Assembly: GCA_944363655.1 (NCBI GenBank)
Contig: CALVUU010000095.1
Location: 1-33,900 of the forward strand
Direction: 5' to 3'
DNA from: an uncultured Bacilli bacterium
GTDB lineage: Bacteria > Bacillota_I > Bacilli_A > RF39 > UBA660
Length of the DNA: 33,900 nucleotides
Positions 8,470 to 30,130 of this stretch are shown piece by piece. Every line of letters begins with the position of its first letter. Position 1 is the first letter of the stretch. The position numbers and the translations under genes were made by a program. The notes beneath the pieces were generated by a model. The model did no database searches. It saw only the letters and a program-made list of their open reading frames with translations, and was not told where the DNA came from.

Positions 8470-9142
8470 ATTTGATAAGGAAAAATGTTGGTATAAAAAT
8501 GTATGTCCATTATATGGTAACAAATGTTCGAGTGGTTGTATTAGATACATGAAAATACACTTTTTAGCAAATAATGCTCTCTTAACTGAAAAACAACAAT
8601 ATCCTATCAAGTTATATATTGAAGAGATTGATAGAGAAAATTATAATAAATTAAATGAAATAAAGAAAGATATTAAAAACTTTGTTAATAATGGAAATAA
8701 TTTATTAATCTTTTCTAATATAACCGGAAATGGCAAAACTCAGTGGGCTATTAAGTTAATGATGACCTATTTTGATAAAATATGGCCAGAAGATGATTTT
8801 AGTGTAAGGGGTTTATTTATTAGTATCCCTAAATTATTTAATGGATTAAAAGAAAGTATTCATGAACGAAAAGAATATATTGAACATATTAGACAAAATA
8901 TCCTTAAAGCAGATATTGTTATTTGGGATGAACTTGCTACAAAGAGTTTAACAGATTTTGAACATAACTATTTGTTATCGTACATTAATGAAAGATTAGA
9001 AGCAGGTAAGACTAATATATTTACTTCTAACTTAAATAAAGAGCAATTATTAGAATCATTAGGCGACCGAGTATATAGTAGGGTCGTAAATTCGAGCATT
9101 GTTATTGAATTAAAAGGAAAAGATAAAAGGGGGATTAAATAA
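8453..9142 (+). CDS. dnaC: DnaC-like AAA+ replicative helicase loader
   Basis: I start at ATG 8453, preceded by AAGGGGAAAG; an upstream ATG at 8417 has no such site. The 229-residue product has an N-terminal cysteine cluster (CWYKNVCPLYGNKCSSGC) likely to bind zinc. The AAA+ ATPase core follows: Walker A ITGNGKTQ, Walker B ADIVIWDELAT, sensor I ISTSN-like FTSNL, and a C-terminal DRVYSRVVNSS containing the likely arginine finger. It should deliver the downstream DnaB-type helicase onto DNA melted by the initiator. It is joined to the helicase gene by a TAATG overlap. Confidence 0.87.
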   Translation: MNYLYKFDKEKCWYKNVCPLYGNKCSSGCIRYMKIHFLANNALLTEKQQYPIKLYIEEIDRENYNKLNEIKKDIKNFVNNGNNLLIFSNITGNGKTQWAIKLMMTYFDKIWPEDDFSVRGLFISIPKLFNGLKESIHERKEYIEHIRQNILKADIVIWDELATKSLTDFEHNYLLSYINERLEAGKTNIFTSNLNKEQLLESLGDRVYSRVVNSSIVIELKGKDKRGIK

Positions 9143-10422
9143 TGGTTGATTTGCAGATTTTAAATTTAATCCTAAATAGAAAAGATTATTCTATTATTAA
9201 TTTAAATAATTTAAATGCAGATTATTTTCCCGCATATAAAGCAGAATTTGAATTTATAAAAAATCATTATGAAAAATATAAATTGGTTCCTGATAAACAA
9301 ACATTTATTGATAGATTTCCCGATTTTAAATTTTTTGAAGTGACCGAATCAGAGAAATATCTAGTTGACGGTATTCAAGAAGAATATTTATATAATAAGA
9401 CAGTGCCTATCCTACAAAAGATGGATGAATTATTAACTGGAGAAAATGCAGATAGTAGGAAAGCGGTTGAGTATCTGATGTCAAAGATACCGACCTTAAC
9501 TAGAAAGTTAAATGTTGAGGCGACTGATTTAGTTAGCCAAGCAGATAAACGATTAAAGACTTATCAAGATAAAGTAGAAAATAAGGATAAGTCAATAATC
9601 AAGACAGGGTTAAAAGAACTTGATGAAATTATAAGTGGCTGGGATGTCCAAGAAGAGTTAGCAGTAATTACTGGTAGAACTGGTATGGGTAAATCTTGGT
9701 GGCTATTTTTCTTTTTATTAAATGCTTTAAAACAAGGAGTAACTGTTGGCCTATATAGTGGTGAGATGGGCGCCGATAAGGTTGGTTATCGTATTGATAC
9801 CTGGATGAGTAATATATCAAATTTTAAAATTAATAAAGGATTTAAAGATATTAAAGAACAATATGAAGAACATATTGAACATTTTAAAAAATTTAATTCT
9901 TCCTTCTATATAATAACACCAAAAGAATTAGGTGGGCCTGCAACGGTTGAAAAATTACGAGCGTTCGTAGAAAAATATAATATTCAACTATTAGGTATAG
10001 ACCAATTTAGTTTAATGGAGGATAGCAGGCGAGGACGAGTTACTTATGAGAGATTTGGTAACATCTCTATGGATGTTAAAACTATGCAAATGGAATTGGG
10101 AATACCAATTATTGCAGATGCTCAATTAAATAGAAATGCTGCTAGCAAGGATGTGGAAGAGCCTGGAACCGAACATTTAGGAGGTAGTGATAGAATAGCA
10201 CAAGACGCAACTACAATATTATCAATTGTTCAAAAAGAACCTGGAGTTGAAATAAGAATTATGAAATCAAGGGATAGTAAAGTTGGGGATAAATTACTAT
10301 ATCATTGGGATATTGATAAGGGTATATTAACATATATTCCTAGTTCAAATGATGCAACTAACGGTAAATATGTACAAGAAATTAAAGAGCAATACGGTAA
10401 AGAAGGAGTTGATGTATTTTGA
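9142..10422 (+). CDS. dnaB: DnaB-type replicative DNA helicase
   Basis: A 426-residue hexameric helicase. An N-terminal helical domain (residues 1-125) binds primase and loader in this family. The RecA-fold motor follows: Walker A GRTGMGKS (178-185), the DnaB H1a-type SGEMGADKVGYR (206-217), Walker B LLGIDQFSLMED, and motif H3 ADAQLNR with the Gln and Arg needed for coupling. A later GGSDRIAQDATTIL segment matches DnaB H4. It unwinds the fork 5' to 3'. It ends in TGA overlapping the TTG start of the primase gene, so the two are coupled. Confidence 0.93.
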   Translation: MVDLQILNLILNRKDYSIINLNNLNADYFPAYKAEFEFIKNHYEKYKLVPDKQTFIDRFPDFKFFEVTESEKYLVDGIQEEYLYNKTVPILQKMDELLTGENADSRKAVEYLMSKIPTLTRKLNVEATDLVSQADKRLKTYQDKVENKDKSIIKTGLKELDEIISGWDVQEELAVITGRTGMGKSWWLFFFLLNALKQGVTVGLYSGEMGADKVGYRIDTWMSNISNFKINKGFKDIKEQYEEHIEHFKKFNSSFYIITPKELGGPATVEKLRAFVEKYNIQLLGIDQFSLMEDSRRGRVTYERFGNISMDVKTMQMELGIPIIADAQLNRNAASKDVEEPGTEHLGGSDRIAQDATTILSIVQKEPGVEIRIMKSRDSKVGDKLLYHWDIDKGILTYIPSSNDATNGKYVQEIKEQYGKEGVDVF

Positions 10423-11375
10423 TTGTCATAAATAATAAGGTCATTAATGCTTCGGTTATGGATATATTAATCGAATTGCAAAATCAATTAAGATACAATG
10501 GTATTAATAAACTAAGAACAATAAAAATAGTTGGTAATAATGCACAAATACCTTGTCCTATTCATAGTCAAGGTAATGAAAAGAAACCTAGTGCAGGTGT
10601 GGTTTTAAATAGTAATGAAAAAACCGAAGCAGGCACTTGTCATTGTTTTACATGTGGATATGTCGCAGATTTATCGGAATTCGTAAGTAATTGTTTTGGA
10701 TATGATGATAAAGGAAAATTTGGTACACATTGGTTATTAGAAAATTTTTCAAATGATGATGTACGACAAAGAAAATCTTTAAATTTTAAAACGCGCCAAA
10801 AAAATAATAATATTAATAATTATATCTCCGATAAAGAATTAGATAGATATAGATACTATCATGATTACATGTATAAAAGAAAATTAACAGACGAAATAAT
10901 TCAATTATTCGATGTTGGATATGATAAAGATACTAATTGTTTAACTTTTCCAGTAAATGACGAAAATGGTAATTGTGTATTTATTGCAAGGCGAAGTATT
11001 AAAGGTAAATATTTTAACTATCCAGCAGCATCATTAAAACCGGTATATGCATTAGATAAAATACCAAAAGATATAAAAAGCGTAGTTGTATGTGAAAGTA
11101 TTATTAATGCATTAACCTGCTGGGTATATGGCGATTATGCTATTGCCCTATTAGGAACTGGTACTCAAGAACAATATGAAATTTTAAAAAGAAGTCATAT
11201 TCGAAAATTCGTATTAGGTTTTGATGGGGATAGTGCAGGTGATAGAGCGTGCATTAGATTTAAAAAAGAACTAGGAAATAGAGCAATAATTACAAAATTA
11301 TCAATACCCCGAAATAAAGATATTAATGATTTATCAAAAGAAGAATATTTATTATTAAAAGAAAATTATTTTTAA
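10419..11375 (+). CDS. dnaG: DnaG-type primase (zinc finger plus Toprim)
   Basis: A 318-residue primase starting at TTG 10419, with GGAG about 12 bases upstream; no ATG or GTG fits better. The zinc-binding CHC2 module uses C46, H49, C76 and C79 (CPIHS, CHCFTCG). The Toprim catalytic core has VCESIINAL (the catalytic Glu) and GFDGDSAGDRA (the DxD pair), with ALLGTGTQ between. It lacks the long C-terminal helicase-binding domain of bacterial DnaG, so it is short for the family, as in other phages. It makes RNA primers at the fork with the upstream helicase. Confidence 0.92.
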   Translation: MIVINNKVINASVMDILIELQNQLRYNGINKLRTIKIVGNNAQIPCPIHSQGNEKKPSAGVVLNSNEKTEAGTCHCFTCGYVADLSEFVSNCFGYDDKGKFGTHWLLENFSNDDVRQRKSLNFKTRQKNNNINNYISDKELDRYRYYHDYMYKRKLTDEIIQLFDVGYDKDTNCLTFPVNDENGNCVFIARRSIKGKYFNYPAASLKPVYALDKIPKDIKSVVVCESIINALTCWVYGDYAIALLGTGTQEQYEILKRSHIRKFVLGFDGDSAGDRACIRFKKELGNRAIITKLSIPRNKDINDLSKEEYLLLKENYF

Positions 11376-11392
11376 AATTTGGGTAATTTTAG

Positions 11393-11421
11393 TTGATTTA
11401 TAATAATATATATATTATTAT
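11393..11421 (+). promoter_or_regulatory. Sigma-A-type promoter for the hammerhead/sigma-factor transcript
   Basis: TTGATT (11393-11398), 17-bp spacer, TATTAT (11416-11421). A start site near 11428 leaves under 10 bases before the first ribozyme stem at 11437. Confidence 0.75.
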
Positions 11422-11436
11422 ATATATATAATAAAA

Positions 11437-11505
11437 TGAATGAGCGAAACGCCTTATGGCGTCTGGTAGGGTTAGTCACCTATCACTGATGAGCTTGATT
11501 GTTCA
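11437..11505 (+). ncRNA. Type II hammerhead ribozyme
   Basis: All core nucleotides are present in circular-permuted (type II) order: TGAA and GAGC (stem II 3' strand, 11437-11445), GAA (11446-11448), stem III ACGCC/GGCGT with loop TTAT (11449-11462), cleavage base C (11463), stem I TGGTAGG/CCTATCA with loop GTTAGTCA (11464-11485), catalytic CTGATGA (11486-11492), and stem II 5' strand GCTT...TTCA (11493-11505). A15.1-U16.1 pairs, and stem I has one G-U pair. Stem II has an internal loop that could contact loop I, as in natural hammerheads. Cleavage is predicted between 11463 and 11464, in the leader of the sigma-like gene. Confidence 0.88.
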
Positions 11506-11532
11506 CTGAAAAGGACTAGGGAGAATGGAAAA

Positions 11533-12159
11533 ATGATAAAAACTTACAACTTATTAAATCTTATACGTAAAACTGACTACAAAAAATTTACAAACGAGGA
11601 GCTAGCAAAATTATACCAAATAAATAATGATGAATTCATTATTGCTGAATTGTATTGCCGAAATTTTAATTATTGGTATAAATTAGGTACTTTAATTAAT
11701 TTTATACGCTCGGAAGAAAAAGCGAGTATTATTTTAGAGAATATTAATTATGCTTTAAAGAATTATAATATAAGAAGAGGAGTAAGTTTATTAACCTATA
11801 CTTCCAAGTATATATATAATGCTTTTGGTGGATTAAAAACAAAGAAAAAATTTAAAAATCGAGAAGAAGAAAATAAAATAATTAGTTTGGATATATGTGA
11901 CAGTCAACATAATAGATTAATGTCTGATATTATAGAAGATACTAATAACGATTTAGATGCATGTATTTTAAAATTAACAATTGATACTGATAATTCATTA
12001 ACTGATTTTGAAAAGAAACTTTGTCATATATTTATAGATAACCCTTATATTGAAATCAAAGAAATTGGGGAAGAGATGCATGTAACAACTCAATATATTT
12101 GGCATATTAAGAAAAGATTAGCAAAAAAATTAAAAATTAGTTTATGTTTTAGCAAATAA
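11533..12159 (+). CDS. Sigma-70-family-like transcription factor
   Basis: A 208-residue protein. Residues about 20-100 resemble sigma region 2 (NEELAKLYQINNDEFIIAEL, YCRNFNYW, ALKNYNIRRGVSLLTYTSKYI). A basic linker (LKTKKKFKNR) follows, then a region 4-like helix-turn-helix (LTDFEKKLCHIFI, IEIKEIGEEMHVTTQYIWHIKKRLAKKL). It has the two-domain size of phage and ECF-type sigma factors. Its leader has a sigma-A promoter and a hammerhead ribozyme. It lies immediately before promoter element copy 3, so it is a good candidate to read that motif; that link is inference. Confidence 0.75.
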   Translation: MIKTYNLLNLIRKTDYKKFTNEELAKLYQINNDEFIIAELYCRNFNYWYKLGTLINFIRSEEKASIILENINYALKNYNIRRGVSLLTYTSKYIYNAFGGLKTKKKFKNREEENKIISLDICDSQHNRLMSDIIEDTNNDLDACILKLTIDTDNSLTDFEKKLCHIFIDNPYIEIKEIGEEMHVTTQYIWHIKKRLAKKLKISLCFSK

Positions 12160-12173
12160 CTTTATATATTATA
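12140..12173 (+). promoter_or_regulatory. Bipartite phage promoter-like element, copy 3
   Basis: GTTTATGTTTTA (12140-12151), 9-bp spacer, TTTATATATTATA (12161-12173). The first half lies in the last codons of the sigma-like gene. The leader downstream is A-rich, with a possible weak TGAGG/CCTCA hairpin (12175-12200), before the gp32-like gene. Confidence 0.8.
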
Positions 12174-12229
12174 ATGAGGCAAGAACAAAATAAGACCTCA
12201 ATAAAAAATAATAAAAGGAGAAATGGAAA

Positions 12230-12940
12230 ATGGGAAGAGTTAACTTAAACGATGTTGACAATTACAAAAGCAACTCAGGCGCATCATTTTTTGGGCTTGA
12301 GAATGATAAAGATGTAGCAACTGTAAGGCTATGTCATAATGATGCGAGTGATATTGAAATTATTGCTTGTCATCAAATTGAAGTAGATGGAAAAAAGAGA
12401 AAGGTATCATGTTTACGAAACTATGACGACCCAATACAGGTATGTCCATTATGCTTAGCAGGTGTGCCACTACAAATCAGATATTTTGTTCATTTATTAG
12501 AATATCAAAAAACATTTGATGGTTTTGAGAAAAATCCTCAAAAGAAAATATGGGAAAGAGGTAGAACTTTCCAAAAGGAAATATTAGGATTGGCGGGTAG
12601 ATATAACCCATTATGGAAAACAGTTTTTGAAATCGAAAGACAAGGTAAAAAAGGCGACCAGACTACTAAATATGGAATATACCCTATGAATTACACTCTT
12701 GACGAATTGCCAATAGCTGATGAAGATTTGGAAAATGATTCTGTTTTAGGAACTATTATTTTAGAAAAAAATGCGGAAGAATTAGATTATTTTCTTAATA
12801 ATGGGGAGTTTCCGGTTGATAAATCAAATAAAAATAATACAAGTAATAATGATACTCCATTTAAAGAAGAGCCAGCACCTATTACTACACCTAGAAGAGA
12901 AATGCCTTCTGGTATGACTGGAAATAGGAGAAGAATTTAA
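12230..12940 (+). CDS. gp32-like single-stranded DNA-binding protein
   Basis: A 236-residue protein with AAGGAG upstream. The layout matches T4 gp32-like proteins: a short N-terminal segment, a core OB-like domain with a zinc-binding cysteine set (VSCLRNYDDPIQVCPLCLAG), and aromatic, basic segments (KNPQKKIWERGRTFQKEI). Unlike T4 gp32 the tail is Asn/Pro-rich and ends in Arg (GNRRRI), though acidic residues occur near 180-200. It should coat ssDNA for the polymerase encoded next. The long A-rich leader could allow self-regulation as in T4, which is speculation. Confidence 0.78.
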   Translation: MGRVNLNDVDNYKSNSGASFFGLENDKDVATVRLCHNDASDIEIIACHQIEVDGKKRKVSCLRNYDDPIQVCPLCLAGVPLQIRYFVHLLEYQKTFDGFEKNPQKKIWERGRTFQKEILGLAGRYNPLWKTVFEIERQGKKGDQTTKYGIYPMNYTLDELPIADEDLENDSVLGTIILEKNAEELDYFLNNGEFPVDKSNKNNTSNNDTPFKEEPAPITTPRREMPSGMTGNRRRI

Positions 12941-12956
12941 TTGATAAGGAGATAAA

Positions 12957-15221
12957 ATGAAAAAGGGTCTATTAGGCGATTTAATACCAACCCGCTCAAG
13001 TAAACAATCAGATTTAGATAAATTATCAAAAATAACTAGTAAAACTGCGACTAGTATTAAATCGGGTAAAAATAATAGTATAATAGATAAAATTAATATT
13101 ATTAATGCAGAAGTTTATAAACATTTAGGCAAATATAAAGATTATATCAAAATAATAACAAATTCTGATTCTTTAAAAGAATATATCGATTTATGTATAC
13201 AAAATGGTATAGTTTCAATAGATACCGAAACAACTTCATTAGACCCTATAACTTGTGAATTAGTAGGGGTATGTCTATATACTCCTACTTTTCCGTCGGT
13301 ATATATACCTGTAAATCATCAAAGTTATATTACCGCTTGTAGATTGGATGAGCAAATTGATATTAATGTATTAAAAACAGAATTAGCAAGATTAAAAGAT
13401 ATTAAACAAATCTATCATAATGCTAAATATGATATGCGGGTTTTACATTGGTATCTAGGATTAGATTTTGAACCTTATTGGGATACAATGATTGCTGCAA
13501 AATTATTAAATGAAAATGAATCTGCTGCTCTTAAGTATCAATATGCAAAATATATCGAGAAAACAAATAAAGAATATGATTTTGATAGTTTATTTAAGGG
13601 TATTGATTTTAGACAGGTACCTATTGAAACAGCCGCTATGTATGCTGCTACCGACGCATATATTACTTATAAATTATATCAATTTCAAAATCAATACATT
13701 GGTAATGAAAAATATAAGGGAATTACAAACGTATTCTTTAATATAGAAATGCCCCTTATTCCAGTGATTGCCGATATGGAAAATACAGGAATTTCTATTG
13801 ATACTGATTATGCAAAGCAATTAAGTATAAAATATCATAGTAAATTGGATGAATGCGAAATAAAGGTATATAAAGAGATAGAGCAGTATAAAGACAAAAT
13901 TAATGAATATAGATTAAAAAATCCAAATAAAAAATTACAAGAGCCAATCGCTATAAATAGTCCATCACAGTTGGCAATATTGCTTTATGACATTATAGGG
14001 GTTAAAGTTATTGATACAAAAAATCCGAGAGGAACTGGTGAAGAAATTTTATCAAAAATGGATTTACCTTTATGTAAATTAATTTTAGAGTATAGAGGTA
14101 TCTATAAGTTGATATCTACCTATATTGATAAGCTTCCCGAAACAATTAATTCAAAAACAGGTAGGATTCATGCAAGTTTTAATCAATATGGGGCAGCAAC
14201 GGGTAGATTTAGTTCTAGTGAACCTAATCTACAAAATATTCCTAGTCATAATATAGAAATTAGACAAATGTTTAGAGCGGGAGAAGGTAAGGTTTTAATT
14301 GGTTCCGATTTTTCTCAACAAGAACCTCGAATACTTTCTCAAATGAGTGGTGATGAAAATCGTATGAATGCTTATAAAGAAGGTAAAGATTTATATGCAT
14401 GGTCTGCATCATTAGTATTTCATAAACCTTACGAAGAATGTAAAGAATTTAGACCTGATGGCAGTAAAAACCCAGAAGGCAAAGAATTAAGAAGTAAAAT
14501 GAAAGCAATTATTCTAGGTATAATGTATAGTAAGGGCGTAAAGGCCATCGCGGAAGATTTAAAAATTCCAGTAAAAGAAGCACAAAACCTATTTGATACA
14601 TTTTTTAAACAATTTCCTAAGGTTAAAGGTTTCATGGAATACACACAACAATTTGCTAGAGAACATGGATACGTAGAAACTGTATGGGGTAGAAAAAGAC
14701 GATTACCTGATATGCAATTACCCGAATACGAATTTGAGTTAAGTTCAAATAAGCCTAGTAATTTTAATCCATTATTTGACGATTTTAATTTAGAAGATGA
14801 TAGTAGTGAAAAAATAGCTTATTATAGAAAAGCATTATTAAACGCCTATGGATTTAAACAAAAACAAGATATTAAAATGAAAGCGTATAATGACGGAATT
14901 AAAATTAAAGATAATGGAGGATTTATCGCAGAAGCAACAAGACAGTGTGTTAATAGTAGAATACAAGGTAGCGCGGCAGACATGACTAAAATAGCAATGT
15001 GCAAAATTTGGTGCGACCCTGAATTAAAAAAATTAGGTTTCAATTTATTATTAACTGTGCACGATGAAATTATAGGAGAAGCTCCTATTGAAAATGCTAA
15101 GCAGGTGGCAGAAAAATTAGTTTCTATAATGGTTAATAGTGCAAAACCTGAAATACAAGTACCTATGAAGTGTGATGCAGAAATAACAAAGAGTTGGTAT
15201 GGTGAAAAGATAGATGTATAA
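12957..15221 (+). CDS. polA: Family A DNA polymerase with 3'-5' exonuclease
   Basis: A 754-residue replicative polymerase. The exonuclease motifs are intact: DTE (89-91), YHNAKYDM with D159, and YAATDAYITY with D233. Polymerase motifs follow: TGRFSSSEPNLQNIP (415-429), motif A GSDFSQQEPRIL with D451, the O-helix RSKMKAIILGIMYSKG (512-527), and motif C TVHDE with D703. There is no 5'-3' exonuclease domain. Compared with bacterial Pol I there is an extra segment of roughly 75 residues (about 586-660) between WGRKRRLPD and the NSRIQGSAAD helix, acidic and Asn-rich. The first 60 residues are basic and low-complexity. It probably works with the phage-encoded clamp at 19598. Confidence 0.95.
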   Translation: MKKGLLGDLIPTRSSKQSDLDKLSKITSKTATSIKSGKNNSIIDKINIINAEVYKHLGKYKDYIKIITNSDSLKEYIDLCIQNGIVSIDTETTSLDPITCELVGVCLYTPTFPSVYIPVNHQSYITACRLDEQIDINVLKTELARLKDIKQIYHNAKYDMRVLHWYLGLDFEPYWDTMIAAKLLNENESAALKYQYAKYIEKTNKEYDFDSLFKGIDFRQVPIETAAMYAATDAYITYKLYQFQNQYIGNEKYKGITNVFFNIEMPLIPVIADMENTGISIDTDYAKQLSIKYHSKLDECEIKVYKEIEQYKDKINEYRLKNPNKKLQEPIAINSPSQLAILLYDIIGVKVIDTKNPRGTGEEILSKMDLPLCKLILEYRGIYKLISTYIDKLPETINSKTGRIHASFNQYGAATGRFSSSEPNLQNIPSHNIEIRQMFRAGEGKVLIGSDFSQQEPRILSQMSGDENRMNAYKEGKDLYAWSASLVFHKPYEECKEFRPDGSKNPEGKELRSKMKAIILGIMYSKGVKAIAEDLKIPVKEAQNLFDTFFKQFPKVKGFMEYTQQFAREHGYVETVWGRKRRLPDMQLPEYEFELSSNKPSNFNPLFDDFNLEDDSSEKIAYYRKALLNAYGFKQKQDIKMKAYNDGIKIKDNGGFIAEATRQCVNSRIQGSAADMTKIAMCKIWCDPELKKLGFNLLLTVHDEIIGEAPIENAKQVAEKLVSIMVNSAKPEIQVPMKCDAEITKSWYGEKIDV

Positions 15222-15235
15222 ATAAAGGAGAAAAA

Positions 15236-16153
15236 ATGATTTTATATTTTGCGGGAAGTTTAGGTAAAGAGGTTGACCAATTTATGTTTGAAAATGGATT
15301 TGACCGTCTTATTAGTCAATATAATGGTAAGAAAGCAATTCAAGATTGTATAGAAAAAAAGAAAATAAATGATAATTTTAAATTATTTATAGATAGTGGA
15401 GCATTTAGTGTTCATAGATTAGGTACTTCATTAAGCACAGATGAATATATAAATTATATTAATAGTATTACCGAATATTGTGAAATTTTTGCACAATTAG
15501 ATACTATCCCTGGGGAATGGGGTAAGCCAAAAGAATTAGAACAACTTATAGAAGCTCCAAGACTATGTTGGGAAAATTATTTATATATGGCGGGAAAACT
15601 TAAACAACCCGAAAAATTATTGCCTATTTTTCACCAAGGTGAGAGTTTTGATTGGCTTGTAAATATGCTCGAATATGTTAATGATAAAGGAGAACATATA
15701 CCATATATTGGGTTATCCTGTAATAAGGAGTTGAGCCGAAAAGATTGGATAAAGTGGTTTGATAAATGTTTTAGAATAATAAAAAATAGTTCTAATCCGA
15801 ATGTAAAAACACATGCCTTTGGAATGACAAGTTTTAAGGTATTATCTAAATTTCCATTTACTAGTTGCGATTCAACTACATGGATTATGTCTGGGGCAAA
15901 TGGCTCTATAATGACGGATTATGGAACTATCTTAGTAAGTGACAAGTCTAGAAATAAATTACAACATATTGATAATCAACTACCAGAGGTTAAAAAGAAT
16001 ATTATTGAATTAGTTAATAACTTAGGATTTAACTTCGAGCAACTTACAAAAAGTCATAAAGATAGAGCATTTTATAATTTAAAATACATGCATGAAAAAG
16101 CAAAAAATTTAATTATTAATTATAATAATAATGGAAAGAAAAGCTTAATTTAG
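15236..16153 (+). CDS. dpdA: DpdA-like DNA guanine transglycosylase
   Basis: A 305-residue TIM-barrel enzyme of the tRNA-guanine transglycosylase superfamily, phage DpdA type, with AAGGAG upstream. Visible motifs are FIDSGAFSVH with D53, AQLDTIPGE (88-94), PIFHQGES (130-137), YIGLS (157-161), KTHAFGMTSFKVL (191-203), and SCDSTTW with D212, the likely nucleophile. It begins an operon holding all four preQ0-synthesis enzymes, the context known for DpdA, which swaps guanine in DNA for a 7-deazaguanine. The exact modified base cannot be read from sequence. There is no QueF, so preQ0 or an amide or carboxy derivative is more likely than preQ1. Confidence 0.85.
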   Translation: MILYFAGSLGKEVDQFMFENGFDRLISQYNGKKAIQDCIEKKKINDNFKLFIDSGAFSVHRLGTSLSTDEYINYINSITEYCEIFAQLDTIPGEWGKPKELEQLIEAPRLCWENYLYMAGKLKQPEKLLPIFHQGESFDWLVNMLEYVNDKGEHIPYIGLSCNKELSRKDWIKWFDKCFRIIKNSSNPNVKTHAFGMTSFKVLSKFPFTSCDSTTWIMSGANGSIMTDYGTILVSDKSRNKLQHIDNQLPEVKKNIIELVNNLGFNFEQLTKSHKDRAFYNLKYMHEKAKNLIINYNNNGKKSLI

Positions 16154-16162
16154 GAGGTATAT

Positions 16163-16888
16163 ATGAAGAAAGTATTATTATATAGTGGTGGTATGGATAG
16201 TTGGTTAATTGATAAAATTTGGAAACCGGATATCAAGGTTTATGTTAATATGCATACAAGGTATTCAGAAGAAGAAATTAAAAAAATAAAAGAAAGAAAT
16301 GAAGATGTACAAATCGTTGATTTTCCACTAGGTCAATGGGAGCGCGACGATGCAATCATCCCACTAAGGAATTTATATTTAGTTATGGTAATGTGTAACA
16401 TTACAGGGTCCGAAGATGTGGATATTTGTCTTGGTGCTACGGCTGGAGATAGGGTATTAGATAAAAGTCCAGAATTCGTAAATAAAGCAAATGATTTACT
16501 TAATTATTTATATCAACCTCAGCATTGGATTCCACAAGGAAAGAAGGTTAGAATTAATATTGATTTTAAATCAAAAACAAAAACACAGCTAATTAAAGAA
16601 TTTGTTGATTCTGGTGGAAATATTGATGAAGCTTTTAAAAGGTCTTTTAGTTGTTATAACCCTCAGGGTGATAAGGAATGCTGGCAATGTAAACCTTGTT
16701 TTAGAAAATACGTATCTTTTAAGTTAAACGGGTATAAATTTGATAAGGATATTGAAGACAAAGTTATTAAATATATTACACAGGAAATCATACCTCAAAT
16801 AAAATTAGGTAAATATGGTAGAGCAGATGAAGAAAAAGAAATAATGCAAGCATATAATATGTATCTCTCAGAAAGAGGTTTATTATGA
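16163..16888 (+). CDS. queC: QueC, 7-cyano-7-deazaguanine (preQ0) synthase
   Basis: A 241-residue enzyme that converts carboxy-deazaguanine to preQ0 using ATP and ammonia. The PP-loop ATP-binding motif SGGMDS is at residues 8-13. GATAGDRVLDKSPEF (91-105) fits the substrate-binding region. The four zinc cysteines are C164, C173, C176 and C179 (SCYNP, ECWQCKPCFRK). The sequence ends in ATGA overlapping the HAD gene start. It is close to usual QueC length and has no fused glutamine amidotransferase domain. Confidence 0.9.
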   Translation: MKKVLLYSGGMDSWLIDKIWKPDIKVYVNMHTRYSEEEIKKIKERNEDVQIVDFPLGQWERDDAIIPLRNLYLVMVMCNITGSEDVDICLGATAGDRVLDKSPEFVNKANDLLNYLYQPQHWIPQGKKVRINIDFKSKTKTQLIKEFVDSGGNIDEAFKRSFSCYNPQGDKECWQCKPCFRKYVSFKLNGYKFDKDIEDKVIKYITQEIIPQIKLGKYGRADEEKEIMQAYNMYLSERGLL

Positions 16889-17175
16889 TTATTGCGGTTG
16901 ATTTCGATGGTACCTTATGTGAGTATAAAAATCCAGGAATTGGAGCACCAAGATTAGATATTATTGAAAAAGTTAAAAATTTAGCTAAAAATAATACTAT
17001 CATTCTGTGGACCTGTAGAAGAGGAAAAGCTTTAAAAGACGCCGTTAGATGGTGTAAAAATTTTGGTATAGTATTTAATGCTATTAATAAAAATGTTAAT
17101 GGTATTAAAACTTCCAGAAAGATATATGCTGATTTATATATTGATGATAAAAATGACACAAAAATACTTTATTAG
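16885..17175 (+). CDS. Small HAD-superfamily phosphatase
   Basis: A 96-residue HAD-like hydrolase with the nucleophile motif VDFDGTL near the N-terminus, motif II ILWTCRRG, a conserved lysine region SRKIYADLYIDD, and the terminal acidic DD. It lacks a cap domain and resembles the small BT0820-type HAD family. It is translated from an ATGA overlap with queC and lies inside the deazaguanine operon, so a role in dephosphorylating a pterin or nucleotide intermediate is possible. Small HAD proteins are also common in phages for other reasons. Confidence 0.75.
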   Translation: MIIAVDFDGTLCEYKNPGIGAPRLDIIEKVKNLAKNNTIILWTCRRGKALKDAVRWCKNFGIVFNAINKNVNGIKTSRKIYADLYIDDKNDTKILY

Positions 17176-17208
17176 TTTATGTTTTATATAAAAACTTTAT
17201 ATTATTTA
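17175..17208 (+). promoter_or_regulatory. Bipartite phage promoter-like element, copy 4
   Basis: GTTTATGTTTTA (17175-17186), 9-bp spacer, TTTATATTATTTA (17196-17208). It starts in the stop codon of the HAD gene and drives queD-queE-folE. An ORF reading from 17179 would include it, but AGGAGG at 17211 shows the real start is 17224. Confidence 0.75.
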
Positions 17209-17223
17209 ATAGGAGGCAATAAA

Positions 17224-17655
17224 ATGAAAGTAACAAAACAATTTGAATTCGAAATGGCGCATATGTTGGAAAATCATCCAAGTTTATGTAAAAATCTTCA
17301 TGGACATTCTTATAAATTATTCGTGACAGTTGAAGGCCCAGTAATTGATGATATGGTAGTAGATTTTAAGGACTTAAAAGAAATCGTAAAAGATTTAATT
17401 GTTGACCCATTAGACCATTGCTTTGCTTTTAATTATAACACGGAAGATGAGTTCGAAAAGGATTTAATTGAGGTAGTTAAAAAGTATGATAAAAAATATT
17501 TTGCTTTTCCTTGGAGAACTTCCTGCGAAAATATGGCAAAATGGATGTTTGGTATTTTAAACACTTTCTTTATTAGTAATTCTAAATCTTATAGAATTTC
17601 GAAGATTAGATTATATGAAACTTCAACTAGTTTTGCGGATTATGAAGGAGTATAA
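17224..17655 (+). CDS. queD: QueD, 6-carboxytetrahydropterin synthase
   Basis: A 143-residue pterin-fold enzyme. I choose ATG 17224, which has AGGAGG 7 bases before it. It converts dihydroneopterin triphosphate to carboxytetrahydropterin. The zinc ligands are H13, H26 and H28 (MAHML, LHGHSY), the catalytic cysteine is C22, and D64-H65 (LDHCF) plus the glutamate of RLYETST complete the site. The motif set is intact and the length normal. It is the second step after FolE, encoded two genes downstream. Confidence 0.92.
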   Translation: MKVTKQFEFEMAHMLENHPSLCKNLHGHSYKLFVTVEGPVIDDMVVDFKDLKEIVKDLIVDPLDHCFAFNYNTEDEFEKDLIEVVKKYDKKYFAFPWRTSCENMAKWMFGILNTFFISNSKSYRISKIRLYETSTSFADYEGV

Positions 17656-17656
17656 A

Positions 17657-18364
17657 ATGGAGCAAAAACAATTAAAAGTCATTGAGATATTTGGTTCAAT
17701 AGATGGTGAAGGCAGGAGAGCAGGGGAGCTTACTACTTTTATTAGATTAAGTGGATGTAATTTAAGATGCTCTTGGTGCGATACCGCTTATAGTCAAGAC
17801 GCTAATTGTGGTAATCTTATGACTATTGATGATATATTGGAACAAGTTTTTAATATCGGCTATAAAAATATTACGGTAACCGGGGGAGAGCCGCTTATTC
17901 ATAATAATATTTATAATTTATTATTAAAATTAGTAGATAATGGTTATGATGTTAATGTGGAAACAAATGGTAGCGTTGACCCTAATTATTTAATTAAATC
18001 TCCCGAATTTAATGATAAGGGAGGCGATTTATGGTTCACTATTGATTATAAATCAAAATCTAGTGGTATGCAATATGCAATGAATTTAAATCATTTTGTA
18101 AATCTTCGTAAGAAAGACGTTATCAAATTTGTTGTGGGAAGTAGAGAAGAGTTAGAAGATGCTTTTAATATACTTATGAAATTAGAACCCTATTTTCTTG
18201 AAGATGAAGATAACGTTCCATTGGTGTATTTTAGCCCAGTATTTGGTATGATTGAGCCAGTAGAAATAGTCGATTTTATGAAGGAGCATAAATTAACAAA
18301 AAATGTTAGGGTACAATTACAACTGCATAAAATAATTTGGGACCCAAATAAAAGAGGAGTTTAA
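17657..18364 (+). CDS. queE: QueE, 7-carboxy-7-deazaguanine synthase
   Basis: A 235-residue radical-SAM enzyme that contracts carboxytetrahydropterin to carboxy-deazaguanine. I start at ATG 17657, one base after the queD stop, with AAGGAG in the end of queD. The iron-sulfur cluster cysteines are C34, C38 and C41 ([10 protein letters not shown]). SAM-binding TGGEPL is at 75-80. The N-terminal [14 protein letters not shown] matches the substrate-binding region of QueE. Normal length, nothing missing. Confidence 0.93.
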
Positions 18365-18365
18365 T

Positions 18366-18947
18366 ATGAATAGTTATTTATTAAATAGAGAAAAATTAGA
18401 AAAGGTAGCAAGAGAATTTCTTGAAATAGTAGACCCCAATCCAGATAGAGAAGGGTTAAAAGAAACTCCAAAAAGAGTAGCAAAATATTGGTATGAGTTA
18501 TTGGAAGGTCAAATGTATACAAACGATGAGATAGCTAGCATGTATGATAAGTGTTTTGAAGATGTGAAAAATAGTGATTTAGTCTTGGAAAAAGATATAA
18601 GTATATTTAGTCATTGTGAGCATCATTTAGCATTAATGTATGATATGAAGGTATCGATAGCATACATTCCTAATGGTAGAGTAATTGGTTTATCAAAAAT
18701 GGCTAGGATTGCTGAAATGGTTGGCAAAAGATTACAATTACAAGAAAGAATAGGTACTGATATTGCAGAGATTATGATGAAAATTTTAAATACAAAAGAT
18801 GTAGCAGTTATTATTGAGGGTAAACACGGATGTATGACTGCTAGGGGAGCAAAATCAAGAGAAGCGGTTACAAGAACTGCGTGCCTTAATGGTAAATTTA
18901 AAGAACTTGATAGTTTAAGAAACGAATTATATCAATTATTAAAATAG
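18366..18947 (+). CDS. folE: FolE, GTP cyclohydrolase I
   Basis: A 193-residue enzyme making dihydroneopterin triphosphate from GTP, the first step of preQ0 synthesis. The zinc ligands are C84, H87 and C156 (HCEHH, KHGCM). [12 protein letters not shown] (104-115) and the RLQLQERIG segment (122-130) are family signatures. It starts one base after queE ends, so it is part of the same operon. Phages with DpdA often carry their own FolE to raise supply. Confidence 0.93.
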
Positions 18948-25873: not shown

Positions 25874-26248
25874 ATGGTAATTAAAGACGAAAATGGTAAA
25901 GTAGTTATATTAATGAGTAAGAGAGATATTTTAGAATACGTTTTTGAAAAATGTGGATTTGAAGTTGGAATTGAGGTAGAAGAGGTTTTTAAAACTGCAG
26001 AAAACGCGTCCAACTATGATGAAGATGAATGTGATGGATGTAGTGCTTTAAGCGAAGCAGAGGAAAGAGCAGAAAAACTTCAATTTAGGGTAGATAGTTT
26101 AGAATTTGACTTAGAGGATTTAAATGAACAATTTGACGAACTACAAGATAAATTCGAAAATCAAAAGAAAAGTTATATTAAGTACCTAAAGAATAAACAT
26201 TATTATAGTGCAGCAAAAGCATTAGAACAAATGGATGAGGAGGATTAA
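25874..26248 (+). CDS. Coiled-coil protein of unknown function
   Basis: A 124-residue acidic protein. The first 50 residues look globular (LMSKRDILEYVFEKCGFEVGI, EVFKTAENA), with a CDGC pair near residue 55. Residues about 60-105 form a clear coiled coil (AEERAEKLQFRVDSLEFDLE and FDELQDKF). It begins one base after the upstream stop. It may be a dimerising partner of the clamp loader encoded next, but that rests on position only. Confidence 0.65.
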   Translation: MVIKDENGKVVILMSKRDILEYVFEKCGFEVGIEVEEVFKTAENASNYDEDECDGCSALSEAEERAEKLQFRVDSLEFDLEDLNEQFDELQDKFENQKKSYIKYLKNKHYYSAAKALEQMDEED

Positions 26249-26249
26249 T

Positions 26250-27347
26250 ATGAAAGCATTAGCATTAAAATATAGACCTAAGACTTTCGAAGATGTGGTG
26301 GAGCAGGGTTCCACTATAAAGATTTTACAAAAACAATTAATTACCAATAGTACAATGAATTGTTATTTATTTGTAGGACCCGCAGGGTGTGGTAAAACTA
26401 CCTGTGCCAGAATACTGGCAAGGGATATTAATAAAGGATTAGGCACCCCAATTGAAATTGATGCTGCTTCCAATAATGGTGTAGAAAATGTGCGTGATAT
26501 AATTAATGGAGCACAGATGAAATCACTTGATAGCGAATATAAAGTCTATATATTAGACGAATGTCATATGTTATCAACTGGGGCTTGGAATGCTATGCTA
26601 AAATTAATAGAAGAACCCCCAATGAAAACAATTTTTATATTTTGTACCACTGACCCTCAAAAAATACCTGCTACAATTATAAGTAGAGTGCAAAGATTTG
26701 ATTTTCAAAGAATTGGATTTAATGGTATAGTTTCAAGATTGAAATATATTATGGATACCGAAATAAAGGAATGGGTGGATGAGCAATGTAAGGAATACGA
26801 TATAACCCCAGAAAATCCTATGCTAGAAGATAATGTATACGATAACTGTCCTATGACTTATGAAAATGAAGCATTAGAGTATATTGCTAAATTAGCAGAC
26901 GGTGGTATGCGTGATGCCATAACAATGTTAGATAAATGTTTAAGTTATAGTCCTGAATTAACTCTTGATAATGTTATTAAAGCATTGGGAGCAGTTAACT
27001 ACGATGATATGTTTAATTTAACTGATTTTATTACCGATTATAAAGAAGCGGAAATGATTGAATTAATAGAATCTAAATATAGAGAAGGATGTGATTTGAA
27101 ACAATTTATAAAACAATATAGTTTATTCATACTGGATATCTGTAAATATAATACTTTTAAGAATTTTGATTACATTCAAATACCTTCAATTTATAATGAA
27201 AGATTAGATGCATATGTTAAAAGCGTAGAACCTGCATTCGTTAAGCAATTGTTAGATAAGATAATAGAAATTAATAACTTAATAAAATGGGAACATAATT
27301 GCAAAGCAGTTATTGAAATGAATTTAATATTATTGTGTAACGCATAA
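26250..27347 (+). CDS. dnaX: Clamp-loader ATPase, DnaX (tau/gamma) like
   Basis: A 365-residue AAA+ ATPase; I start at ATG 26250, which has GAGGAGG 6 bases upstream and lies just after the previous stop. It begins ALALKYRPKTFEDVV, the DnaX N-terminus. Walker A is GPAGCGKTT (43-51), Walker B ILDECHML (101-108), and the arginine finger is in ISRVQRFDF (144-152). The zinc module that DnaX carries after Walker A is absent (RDINKGLGTPIEIDAAS runs straight on). There is no long tau tail. It should power loading of the phage clamp. Confidence 0.92.
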   Translation: MKALALKYRPKTFEDVVEQGSTIKILQKQLITNSTMNCYLFVGPAGCGKTTCARILARDINKGLGTPIEIDAASNNGVENVRDIINGAQMKSLDSEYKVYILDECHMLSTGAWNAMLKLIEEPPMKTIFIFCTTDPQKIPATIISRVQRFDFQRIGFNGIVSRLKYIMDTEIKEWVDEQCKEYDITPENPMLEDNVYDNCPMTYENEALEYIAKLADGGMRDAITMLDKCLSYSPELTLDNVIKALGAVNYDDMFNLTDFITDYKEAEMIELIESKYREGCDLKQFIKQYSLFILDICKYNTFKNFDYIQIPSIYNERLDAYVKSVEPAFVKQLLDKIIEINNLIKWEHNCKAVIEMNLILLCNA

Positions 27348-27359
27348 GGAGGGTCTATA

Positions 27360-28193
27360 ATGATAGGACAAAAAAGAGTTTTACAAACAATATCTAATTT
27401 AATAAAAGAAAATCGATTTCCCAAGTTTATTTTATTAAGTGGTTCAAGAGGATGGGGCAAAAGAGAATTAACAAAGGAAATTGCTAAAATTATGAATATA
27501 GATTTGGTTACTTTTGAAAATAAAGTTGATGATTTAAGGGAATGTATAAAATTGGCATATGAGCAAACTAGTCCTATTTTATATGTTTTAACGGGAGCTG
27601 ATACAATGTCAATTGCAGCAAAAAATTCTATTTTAAAATTAATAGAAGAGCCCCCAACTAATGCTTTTATTATAATGCTCGCAGAAAATGAAGAAACAAT
27701 ACTACCTACAATTAAAAGTCGTGCTTATTTATTAAGATTAGATAGTTATAGTGAAAAGGAATTAAGAGATTATATTAATACAAAAGATAATATATTCACA
27801 GAAGAGGAGTTGGATAAGGTTATTATAATATGTGACTGCCCGGGTGATATTAATCTATTAATGCAACCCGAGAATAAAGAATTATTGAATCTAGTTGATA
27901 AAATAATTCAAAATATAGATAAGGTAACTCTTTCAAATTTATTAAAAATATCAAAAAAATTTAAGATAAATGATAATTCCGAGGGTATAGATATAAAGTT
28001 ATTTTTAAATTGTATGCAATACGTTTTATATAATAAATTTGGTGAAAAGTATCAATATCGCACAAGATGTTATTTATCATATATAGAAATAATCAATTGT
28101 AATAAATTATTAAGAGCTATAAGTGTTAATAAACAATACGTTATAGATACATTAGTTATGAGGTTGTGGGAAATATGGAATTGTGGGAATTAA
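27360..28193 (+). CDS. holB: Clamp-loader delta-prime-like subunit
   Basis: A 277-residue AAA+ protein with AAGGAGG upstream. The Walker A region is degenerate (GSRGWGKRE, 28-36, with Arg where Ser/Thr binds magnesium), and the Walker B region YVLTGADTM lacks acidic residues, so it probably does not hydrolyse ATP. The arginine-finger motif survives (TIKSRAYLLRL, S120-R121). This is the pattern of bacterial delta prime, which senses ATP in its neighbour. AAKNSILKLIEEPP is shared with DnaX. It lies between the tau-like and delta-like genes. Confidence 0.85.
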   Translation: MIGQKRVLQTISNLIKENRFPKFILLSGSRGWGKRELTKEIAKIMNIDLVTFENKVDDLRECIKLAYEQTSPILYVLTGADTMSIAAKNSILKLIEEPPTNAFIIMLAENEETILPTIKSRAYLLRLDSYSEKELRDYINTKDNIFTEEELDKVIIICDCPGDINLLMQPENKELLNLVDKIIQNIDKVTLSNLLKISKKFKINDNSEGIDIKLFLNCMQYVLYNKFGEKYQYRTRCYLSYIEIINCNKLLRAISVNKQYVIDTLVMRLWEIWNCGN

Positions 28194-29083
28194 AAGATAG
28201 AATTAGTAGTAATAATATACCAAACTTTTTAATATTTACCGGTCCTGAGGTTGGCTTGATGGATATATATATTAATCAAATAGCAAAAGTTTTACAAACT
28301 AATCCAAAACGATTAGATAGTATTACAGAGGTGATTAGTAATAGTAAAATATTAAGTTTAACTCAATCAAATAAGTATAGTATTGTTAGAGGCGATAAGT
28401 CGTTTTTAAGTAGTGAAAAATTACAAGGTAAAATTAAAACTATAAAAGATTATATAATAGTTATATATGATAATATTGATAAGCGCAGCAAATTATACAA
28501 AGAATTTGAAGATAATATAATAACTTTTAATTATATGGACGAAAAAACTCTAATAAGTTTATTATCGAGAAAAATTAAATTAAATCAGGATAATTTAAAA
28601 TGGTTAGTTGATGCCTGCGGTCACGATTATGCTAGATGTTTACTTGAAATTAATAAATTAAATTTATTTGATGATGATAAAGATATACTATTTGAAGAAT
28701 TTAAAAAAGACGGAGTTATTCATGCAGATATTGGAGACGTTATATTTCAGTTTGTTGATGCAGTTTTGACCCGTAAGAAAGCAAGTTCTTGGAAATTATA
28801 TGAATTATTAAAATTAAAAGGTGAGAGTAATATTAAAATAATATCTTTATTATATACAAACTTTAAAGCATTATTATCAGTTCAATTTTGTAAAGAACCT
28901 ACGATTGAAAATACGGGGCTGACAGCATATCAAATTAGTATTAATAAACATAGGAAAGGGATATATAAGGATAGAGAGTTGCTAGATATTATAGAATTAT
29001 TAGCAAATACTGATTATAATATTAAGAGAGGTATTATAGAAGAATCAATAAGTATTGAATATTTGCTTGTAAAAATATTATAA
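28175..29083 (+). CDS. holA: Clamp-loader delta-like subunit
   Basis: A 302-residue protein; I choose ATG 28175 over the GTG at 28166, which sits too close to GAGG. NIPNFLIFTGPEVGLMDIYINQI matches delta's N-terminal pattern, where the P-loop is lost. DYIIVIYDNIDKRSKLYKEF and LLSRKIKLNQDNLKWLVDAC correspond to the next delta segments, and C-terminal helices (KIISLLYTNFKALLSVQF) fit the collar domain. Delta opens the clamp ring. It overlaps delta prime by 19 bases. Assignment by pattern and by order; moderate to good. Confidence 0.78.
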   Translation: MELWELKDRISSNNIPNFLIFTGPEVGLMDIYINQIAKVLQTNPKRLDSITEVISNSKILSLTQSNKYSIVRGDKSFLSSEKLQGKIKTIKDYIIVIYDNIDKRSKLYKEFEDNIITFNYMDEKTLISLLSRKIKLNQDNLKWLVDACGHDYARCLLEINKLNLFDDDKDILFEEFKKDGVIHADIGDVIFQFVDAVLTRKKASSWKLYELLKLKGESNIKIISLLYTNFKALLSVQFCKEPTIENTGLTAYQISINKHRKGIYKDRELLDIIELLANTDYNIKRGIIEESISIEYLLVKIL

Positions 29084-29617: not shown

Positions 29618-30130
29618 ATGGACAGGGGTATTGAAAATTTAATATTAGATAATATTAAGTTAGTTTATTATACACTTCATAAAATGAATATAGTAGCCGA
29701 TGATGATTTAGTTAGTGAAGGTATATTAGCATTAGTTCAGGCGGCTCAAAATTTCAACCCTTCTTTTAATATTCAATTTAGTACTTATGCAGTGTCATAT
29801 ATTAAGGGAAAGATTAAGACATATTTAACGGTAAGAAAGCCTATCATAAAGCCTTCTAGAATTAATGGTGAATTTGTAAATATAGATAAAACAAATAATG
29901 AGATTGTTATTAATGCAATACCTGCTCCAAGTGATAACGTTGAAAGTAGTTTAATAGTTAGGGATTTTTTAGAAAAATTAACATATAGGGAAAGAGTAAT
30001 TGCAGAAGGATTAATGCAAGATAAGACACAACAGCAATTAGGTAAGGAATTAAATATATGCCAAGGTCAAGTATGCAGGATAATAAGAATAATAAGATAT
30101 AAGTATTTACGTTATATTAGAGAATCATAA
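29618..30130 (+). CDS. Sigma-70-family transcription factor (second)
   Basis: A 170-residue protein with AGGAGG upstream. Region 2 is clear: NLILDNIKLVYYTLHKM, DDDLVSEGILALVQAAQNFNP, FSTYAVSYIKGKIKTYL (residues about 7-70), the SigB/SigF-like pattern, so promoter -10 binding is likely. Region 4 is LTYRERVIAEGL, KTQQQLGKELNICQGQVCRII, a helix-turn-helix. Region 3 is a short linker. It precedes the terminase small subunit and could direct late genes. The first sigma-like gene (11533) is more diverged. Confidence 0.82.
   Translation: MDRGIENLILDNIKLVYYTLHKMNIVADDDLVSEGILALVQAAQNFNPSFNIQFSTYAVSYIKGKIKTYLTVRKPIIKPSRINGEFVNIDKTNNEIVINAIPAPSDNVESSLIVRDFLEKLTYRERVIAEGLMQDKTQQQLGKELNICQGQVCRIIRIIRYKYLRYIRES

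Follow-up and report, generated by a model that had tools for sequence, protein, structure and literature searches.

The window (the whole stretch of 33,900 nt that was analyzed) is a phage contig of 28% GC, and nearly all of its large open reading frames lie on the plus strand. The locus of interest is the replication operon of a Dp-1-like phage, with the gene order DnaC-like loader (8417), DnaB (9142), primase, a gap of 157 nt, a 208-aa gene, single-strand DNA-binding protein (SSB) and family A DNA polymerase. A candidate self-cleaving RNA sits in the 157-nt gap. The features of this locus are:

10419..11375 (+), Toprim DNA primase, the upstream gene
11393..11421 (+), promoter-like match of a preliminary description of this DNA; chance level
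11441..11443 (+), TGA triplet, two bases ahead of the core GAAA; follows two open codons only and ends no gene
11443..11501 (+), type II hammerhead as a whole, with its three stems, the core and the pseudoknot strand
11443..11445 (+), stem II 3' strand AGC, partner 11493-11495
11446..11448 (+), core GAA (positions 12-14)
11449..11462 (+), stem III hairpin ACGCC-UUAU-GGCGU; on cleavage would form the 3' terminus of the upstream RNA
11463..11464 (+), predicted cleavage site C11463 / U11464, from H17 of the core
11464..11485 (+), stem I and loop I; on cleavage would form the 5' terminus of the sigma-gene RNA
11486..11492 (+), core CUGAUGA (positions 3-9)
11493..11495 (+), stem II 5' strand GCU
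11497..11500 (+), pseudoknot strand GAUU, partner loop I AGUC 11474-11477; G11501-U11473 could extend it
11519..11523 (+), probable Shine-Dalgarno GGGAG, 9 nt ahead of ATG 11533, from sequence
11533..12159 (+), divergent sigma factor, 208 aa (phrog_351, 3e-5; fold matches; synteny and profile to Dp-1 gp69)
12230..12940 (+), SSB, the next gene downstream (phrog_14578, 8.3e-38)
12957..15221 (+), family A DNA polymerase, further downstream

Elsewhere in the window, a queuosine-type cluster at 15236-18947 comprises tRNA-ribosyltransferase-like, QueC, QueD, QueE and GTP cyclohydrolase genes, and three neighboring genes at 26235-29083 all match DNA polymerase clamp loader families.

The product of the gene at 11533-12159 is a divergent sigma factor, an assignment based on phrog_351, on fold matches, and on synteny and a profile relationship with Streptococcus phage Dp-1, where gp69, annotated as RNA polymerase sigma factor, takes the place of the window's 208-aa gene. 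The sigma region 2 fold is present, and the fold matches are mostly sigma factors. The C-terminus consists of four helices; two-domain matches show rmsd values of 15-20 A. Taken by itself, the C-terminal domain finds matches in chains of further complexes as well (sigma54, human PIC). No Pfam family, sigma domains included, matches this gene at E<=0.001. A second, clearer sigma gene (PHROG 351, 2.5e-27) occupies 29618-30130, directly before the small terminase gene.

Self-cleaving RNAs of the hammerhead kind are frequent in phages. The small self-cutting RNA between the primase gene and the sigma-factor-like gene is very probably a real ribozyme; it is a known kind of RNA, and the sigma gene as neighbor is the unusual context. 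Judged from the letters, 11443-11501 on the plus strand is a type II hammerhead with a complete structural core, and its cleavage is predicted. The invariant core is present (GAA, CUGAUGA, and C11463, not G, at H17), stems I and III are closed by loops and stem II is open, as the type II form requires, and the junction pairs 10.1-11.1 (G11493-C11445), 15.1-16.1 (A-U) and 1.1-2.1 (U11464-A11485) are all found. Stem III pairs A11449-C11453 with G11458-U11462 (5 bp, loop UUAU); stem I pairs 11464-11470 with 11479-11485 (7 bp, one of them G-U), around a loop I at 11471-11478; stem II is formed by AGC 11443-11445 and GCU 11493-11495 (3 bp). The preliminary description had reported a complete type II core here, with stem III ACGCC/GGCGT, a 7-bp stem I, CTGATGA at 11486-11492 and cleavage after C11463, ahead of a sigma-like gene. 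The core, the stems, the junction pairs and the covariance-model matches given below agree with it, H17 predicts a cut between C11463 and U11464, and the gene starts 40 nt beyond CUGAUGA. The 5'-OH end that it had assigned to the sigma mRNA would follow if the RNA cuts. A 17-codon ATG frame at 11436-11489 crosses the ribozyme and stops within CUGAUGA, with no Shine-Dalgarno seen ahead of it.

A descriptor of the core plus its stems (at least 4 pairs in stem III, 4 in stem I and 3 in stem II) has one match in the window; it has none in 60 Mb of Markov sequence of the window's composition and none in 60 Mb at 50% GC. The whole window gives no Rfam match at the gathering threshold. In the 1.4 kb around the site, the covariance search that had been proposed with the Rfam type II family, RF02276, does match 11443-11494, as the top of five matches (E 0.00079), at a score of 30.5 bits that falls below the gathering score of 37 bits. 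The gathering score is a curation cut-off rather than a structural feature, and it is not decisive here because phage loci with the core pattern also fall below it or give no match: among 16 phage loci with the core pattern, 4 of 25 RF02276 matches score under 37 bits, and 4 of the 16 loci have no match at E<=0.1.

Two sets of relatives were collected. The viral set comprises at least 138 type II hammerheads in at least 120 viral contigs, found by a pattern of the window's stem III letters plus the core, and the genome set, found by a narrower pattern, covers 36 genome stretches. From 177 hammerheads (138 viral and 39 genome, window excluded), 167 distinct ones were kept after contig-end cases and duplicates were dropped. 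A covariance model, R1, was built from 50 viral hammerheads with a 22-nt stem I region (51 examples minus one near-duplicate), again without the window. At E<=10 it finds a single site in the window, 11441-11504, at 54.6 bits (E 1.6e-14), a score that is inflated and partly circular because the search pattern used the window's own stem III letters; the Rfam match is not circular. In the R1 alignment, the structure cells are paired in 88.8% of cases vs 66.4% in shuffles, with a covariation score of 0.565 vs 0.141, and across the 50 sequences stem I is 99.3% paired, with covariation at all 6 pairs. Stem III is invariant in this alignment because the pattern fixed it; a descriptor that leaves stem III free picks up 184 hammerheads in the same loci and the window, and these show 30 different pairs of stem III arms. 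The window's stem I region of 22 nt is the commonest length (60 of 139, window included, among the matches listed). Folding energy is unremarkable (z -1.33, with 20 of 200 shuffles folding equally well), and the pseudoknot-free minimum-energy fold of 11441-11504 pairs the stem II strand elsewhere (-19.1 vs -17.4 kcal/mol).

A pseudoknot from loop I to the tail after stem II is common, though not universal, in type II hammerheads. The preliminary description had closed the structure with a stem II that contains an internal loop; the stem exists, at 3 bp, and what had been read as an internal loop, GAUUG 11497-11501, is the tail side of the customary pseudoknot with loop I. In the 22-nt class, the common register pairs positions 11-14 of the loop I region with positions 5-8 after CUGAUGA. 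It is used by 27 of 56 phage relatives, with 16 different pair combinations among those 27, vs a mean of 5.4 and a maximum of 11 when tails are swapped (300 rounds). The window pairs exactly in this register, AGUC 11474-11477 with GAUU 11497-11500, and four such pairs are expected by chance in about 2.5% of cases at its base composition. The weak points of this pseudoknot are one G-U pair and a length of just 4-5 bp. The window's loop fits 2 of 56 other tails, and its tail, permissive because of G-U pairing, fits 13 of 56 other loops; in a looser test on the window alone (at least 5 pairs, offset 0-2), 16% of shuffled tails match, which is not significant. A stem II lengthened by TGAA/TTCA, with an internal loop, was set aside; the bases between fit the pseudoknot register, and the two structures were not compared head to head. 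In another type II ribozyme, shortening or mutating this pseudoknot slows cleavage by about 20-fold to more than 100-fold (Perreault 2011, PMC3088659).

A ribozyme in control of a transcription switch gene had been called a notable arrangement; in the wider class the arrangement is not exceptional: most hammerheads of the phage set sit just before the starts of widely differing genes. The 109 downstream proteins (window included, among the matches listed) match 71 PHROG families, and the commonest of these, among the best 25 of the 71, have three members each and include anti-restriction proteins. Measured against random-place controls, which flatter the class in that hammerheads are mostly intergenic (34 of 138 phage hammerheads lie inside a same-strand ORF of at least 100 aa, vs 1531 of 2760 control places), a start codon follows CUGAUGA by 15-45 nt in 103 of 138 phage hammerheads (386 of 2760), 95 of those 103 have a Shine-Dalgarno (182 of 2760), and 128 of 167 distinct hammerheads have an ORF of at least 60 aa that ends no more than 20 nt ahead of the core (184 of 3340), while 64 of 167 have one of at least 100 aa (99 of 3340), all among the matches listed. 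The ribozyme begins 1-4 nt behind the stop codon of the upstream ORF in 90 of 167 (L081-L236, among the matches listed), which makes the stop codon border on stem II or overlap with it. A control within gaps leads the same way, with 74 of 113 at 4 nt or less (among the matches listed) vs 31.8 expected and a maximum of 48 in 2000 simulations. A same-strand upstream neighbor is little commoner for hammerheads (83 of 131, window included, among the matches listed) than for gene starts (608 of 1076). Hammerheads whose stem III differs in sequence show the same behavior: of 42, 32 have the upstream association, 30 the downstream one, and 21 both. No mention of the stop-codon spacing was found in a limited look at the literature; the main text of Perreault 2011 (PMC3088659) does not contain the term "stop codon".

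The 32 loci with at least two descriptor hammerheads carry them all on one strand. Five loci (L215, L148, L177, L130, L211) hold runs of 6 to 10 hammerheads on one strand over about 3-5 kb (R1, E<=0.01), apparently at successive gene boundaries; the ten in L215 fall within one 8-kb genome stretch.

Unlike most relatives, the window's hammerhead has no abutting upstream ORF. The primase stop lies 70 nt ahead of the core GAAA, with AT-rich DNA between (a weak hairpin, -11.1 kcal/mol, is predicted for 11376-11445), and 19 of 134 distinct phage hammerheads (among the matches listed) likewise lack an abutting upstream open frame of at least 60 codons. The TGA at 11441-11443 stands where the stop codon of the upstream gene is found in many phage relatives, and 5 of the 19 other non-abutting hammerheads also have a stop triplet 2-4 nt ahead; in the window the triplet may be there by chance.

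Sigma relatives (E <1e-7) lie downstream of the primase in 11 of 80 primase-related loci, and in 6 of the 11 they start at most 240 nt from the primase end. An Rfam search of 9 of the 11 loci gave no hammerhead at E<=5, R1 over all 80 loci gave none (best 15.1 bits, E 0.58, in L026), and a 7.5-kb stretch of Dp-1 that includes the primase-sigma gap has none. An initial descriptor scan gave five weak matches at four places in 4 of the 80 loci; with stems of 4-6 bp and long loops, these were not counted as hammerheads. This absence, which covers distant relatives, means that the window's lineage acquired the ribozyme or that other lineages lost it; 17 closer sigma homologs are known as proteins only. 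The comparison with related phages that had been proposed thus found the hammerhead missing from distant relatives only, not a broken core beside a conserved gene. From the other side, a profile of the window's sigma family found no relative at E<=0.01 in 120 hammerhead loci. Close DNA-level relatives of the sigma gene were not found in viral contigs (searched with the single protein and with an 18-member alignment), genome contigs or phage records, and no close relative came from the SSB in viral contigs, from DNA 9000-14000 in phage records, or from viral contigs scanned with a pattern of loop I and the core. The second sigma gene of the window has no hammerhead either (R1 over the window, E<=10).

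The reading we prefer, at a probability of roughly 0.6, is that this RNA punctuates the operon, cutting between primase and sigma-SSB-polymerase and leaving a hairpin on both new ends. It builds on the core, the topology, the pseudoknot register, the gene order and the usual siting of such RNAs between co-directional genes, all of which are observed. As RNA polymerase passes, having read through from the primase gene, the RNA would fold and cut itself between C11463 and U11464 in the cell. Since the type II permutation puts the scissile bond between two closed hairpins, the primase RNA would then carry the stem III hairpin and a 2',3'-cyclic phosphate at its 3' end, and the sigma-SSB-polymerase RNA would open immediately with the stem I hairpin, its first nucleotide bearing a 5'-OH. 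The two messages would be separated, each capped by a hairpin, and message stability would be affected in that their decay rates could differ. Both hairpins form in the predicted cleavage products, the 5' piece folding stem III at -8.0 kcal/mol, and the primase, sigma, SSB and polymerase genes all lie on one strand. Against this reading, R1 finds just one hammerhead in the window despite its many co-directional gene boundaries; the sub-threshold Rfam score, the unremarkable folding energy, the missing contact with an upstream ORF, the weak points of the pseudoknot and the absence from distant relatives also count against it.

The main rival, close to the view taken in the preliminary description, is one we regard as rather unlikely: a promoter directly upstream would start transcription about 35 nt before the cleavage site, and the ribozyme would remove that leader, exchange a 5'-triphosphate for a 5'-OH hairpin end and so stabilize the sigma message. 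The promoter reported at 11393-11421 is a 9-of-12 match, but it proves to be at chance level, equaled in 47% of shuffles of the gap, and 23 such sites are found in 8900-13000 vs 27.1 expected in shuffles. Better matches do occur in the gaps of some distant sigma relatives, the best being TTTACA-17-TATAAT in L003 (equaled by 0.3% of shuffles), and the Dp-1 gap holds TATAAT; in the gaps of the remaining relatives the match is equaled by 11-96% of shuffles. The 1-4 nt spacing seen in about half of the class (90 of 167, among the matches listed) also speaks against leader trimming, since a gap that short cannot hold a promoter. We consider it improbable that the RNA is a regulatory switch, in which fold or cleavage would gate sigma synthesis by altering ribosome access to the sigma start, either by freeing the AUG or through pairing of loop I UUAGUC with GACUAG 11514-11519. 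This alternative pairing has 6 bp and overlaps the Shine-Dalgarno by one base, the predicted accessibility of the AUG is 0.17 in uncleaved read-through RNA vs 0.69 in cleaved RNA, and for the hammerhead variant of haloviruses HF1/HF2 salt-dependent control is conceivable according to Perreault 2011 (PMC3088659). But the AUG is already open (0.75) in a short uncleaved RNA from the putative promoter; the Shine-Dalgarno is unpaired at 0.52 in read-through, 0.48 in short uncleaved and 0.38 in cleaved RNA, with no rise on cleavage, and a Shine-Dalgarno switch of this kind was rejected as weak; and the whole site 11513-11535 barely shifts (0.55, 0.65 and 0.59, respectively). Distant sigma relatives lack the hammerhead by Rfam, R1 and the Dp-1 stretch, and so does the second sigma gene; with folding that gives no clear switch, a promoter match at chance level and an arrangement shared by much of the class, the earlier proposal that the ribozyme controls a transcription switch is not supported.

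Least probable, in our estimate, is a decayed or idle ribozyme left by lateral transfer, with no present role. Its single copy, its not being seen in distant relatives, its sub-threshold Rfam score and the AT-rich filler ahead of it, in a place where a gene ends in many other phages, would suit such a remnant; against it, all core bases and junction pairs are intact, stem I forms 7 of 7 pairs with a sequence of its own, and the contig, at 28% GC, preserves the pseudoknot register. The observation made in the preliminary description is confirmed, and its interpretation is partly supported.

Operon punctuation may, more tentatively, be the general role of phage type II hammerheads. An upstream stop codon at or in the stem II 3' strand would bring the terminating ribosome onto the ribozyme, so that cleavage could be coupled to translation termination and would yield hairpin-capped products (stem III upstream, stem I downstream). 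Here the module would have been gained between primase and sigma and would make the sigma-SSB-polymerase message independent of primase. What hammerheads do in prokaryotes is called an open question in the review of de la Pena 2017 (PMC6155905). More interesting as a lead is the spacing from stop codons in the class. It suggests a definite, testable function for type II hammerheads, and this locus offers a clean single-copy test case, with defined upstream and downstream genes in a compact replication operon.

Streptococcus phage Dp-1 (NC_015274) shares with the window the order DnaC-like loader, DnaB, primase, sigma (gp69), SSB and DNA polymerase; its primase-sigma gap is 58 nt without a hammerhead, whereas that of the window is 157 nt with one. 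The bacterial and phage type II hammerheads (RF02276; Perreault 2011, PMC3088659) resemble the window's RNA in core, permutation, 22-nt stem I region, 3-bp stem II, pseudoknot between loop I and the 3' tail, and a location just before a phage start codon. The window's RNA differs from them in its AT-rich phage, the G-U pair of its pseudoknot, a score below gathering, no contact with an upstream stop codon, and the sigma gene downstream. HHphage of haloviruses HF1/HF2 (Perreault 2011, PMC3088659) is likewise a hammerhead shortly before the start of a viral early or replication gene, but it has a variant form and lies 13 nt ahead of a helicase gene in a virus of archaea, whereas the window has the standard core 40 nt before sigma. 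The clustered prophage hammerheads of A. tumefaciens, C. scindens and A. caulinodans, described in the same paper, also lie beside phage genes in a transcript, with several per region compared with one in the window. These clustered hammerheads cleave in vitro, one set also in E. coli, and processing of the transcript into shorter messages has been proposed for them (Perreault 2011, PMC3088659).
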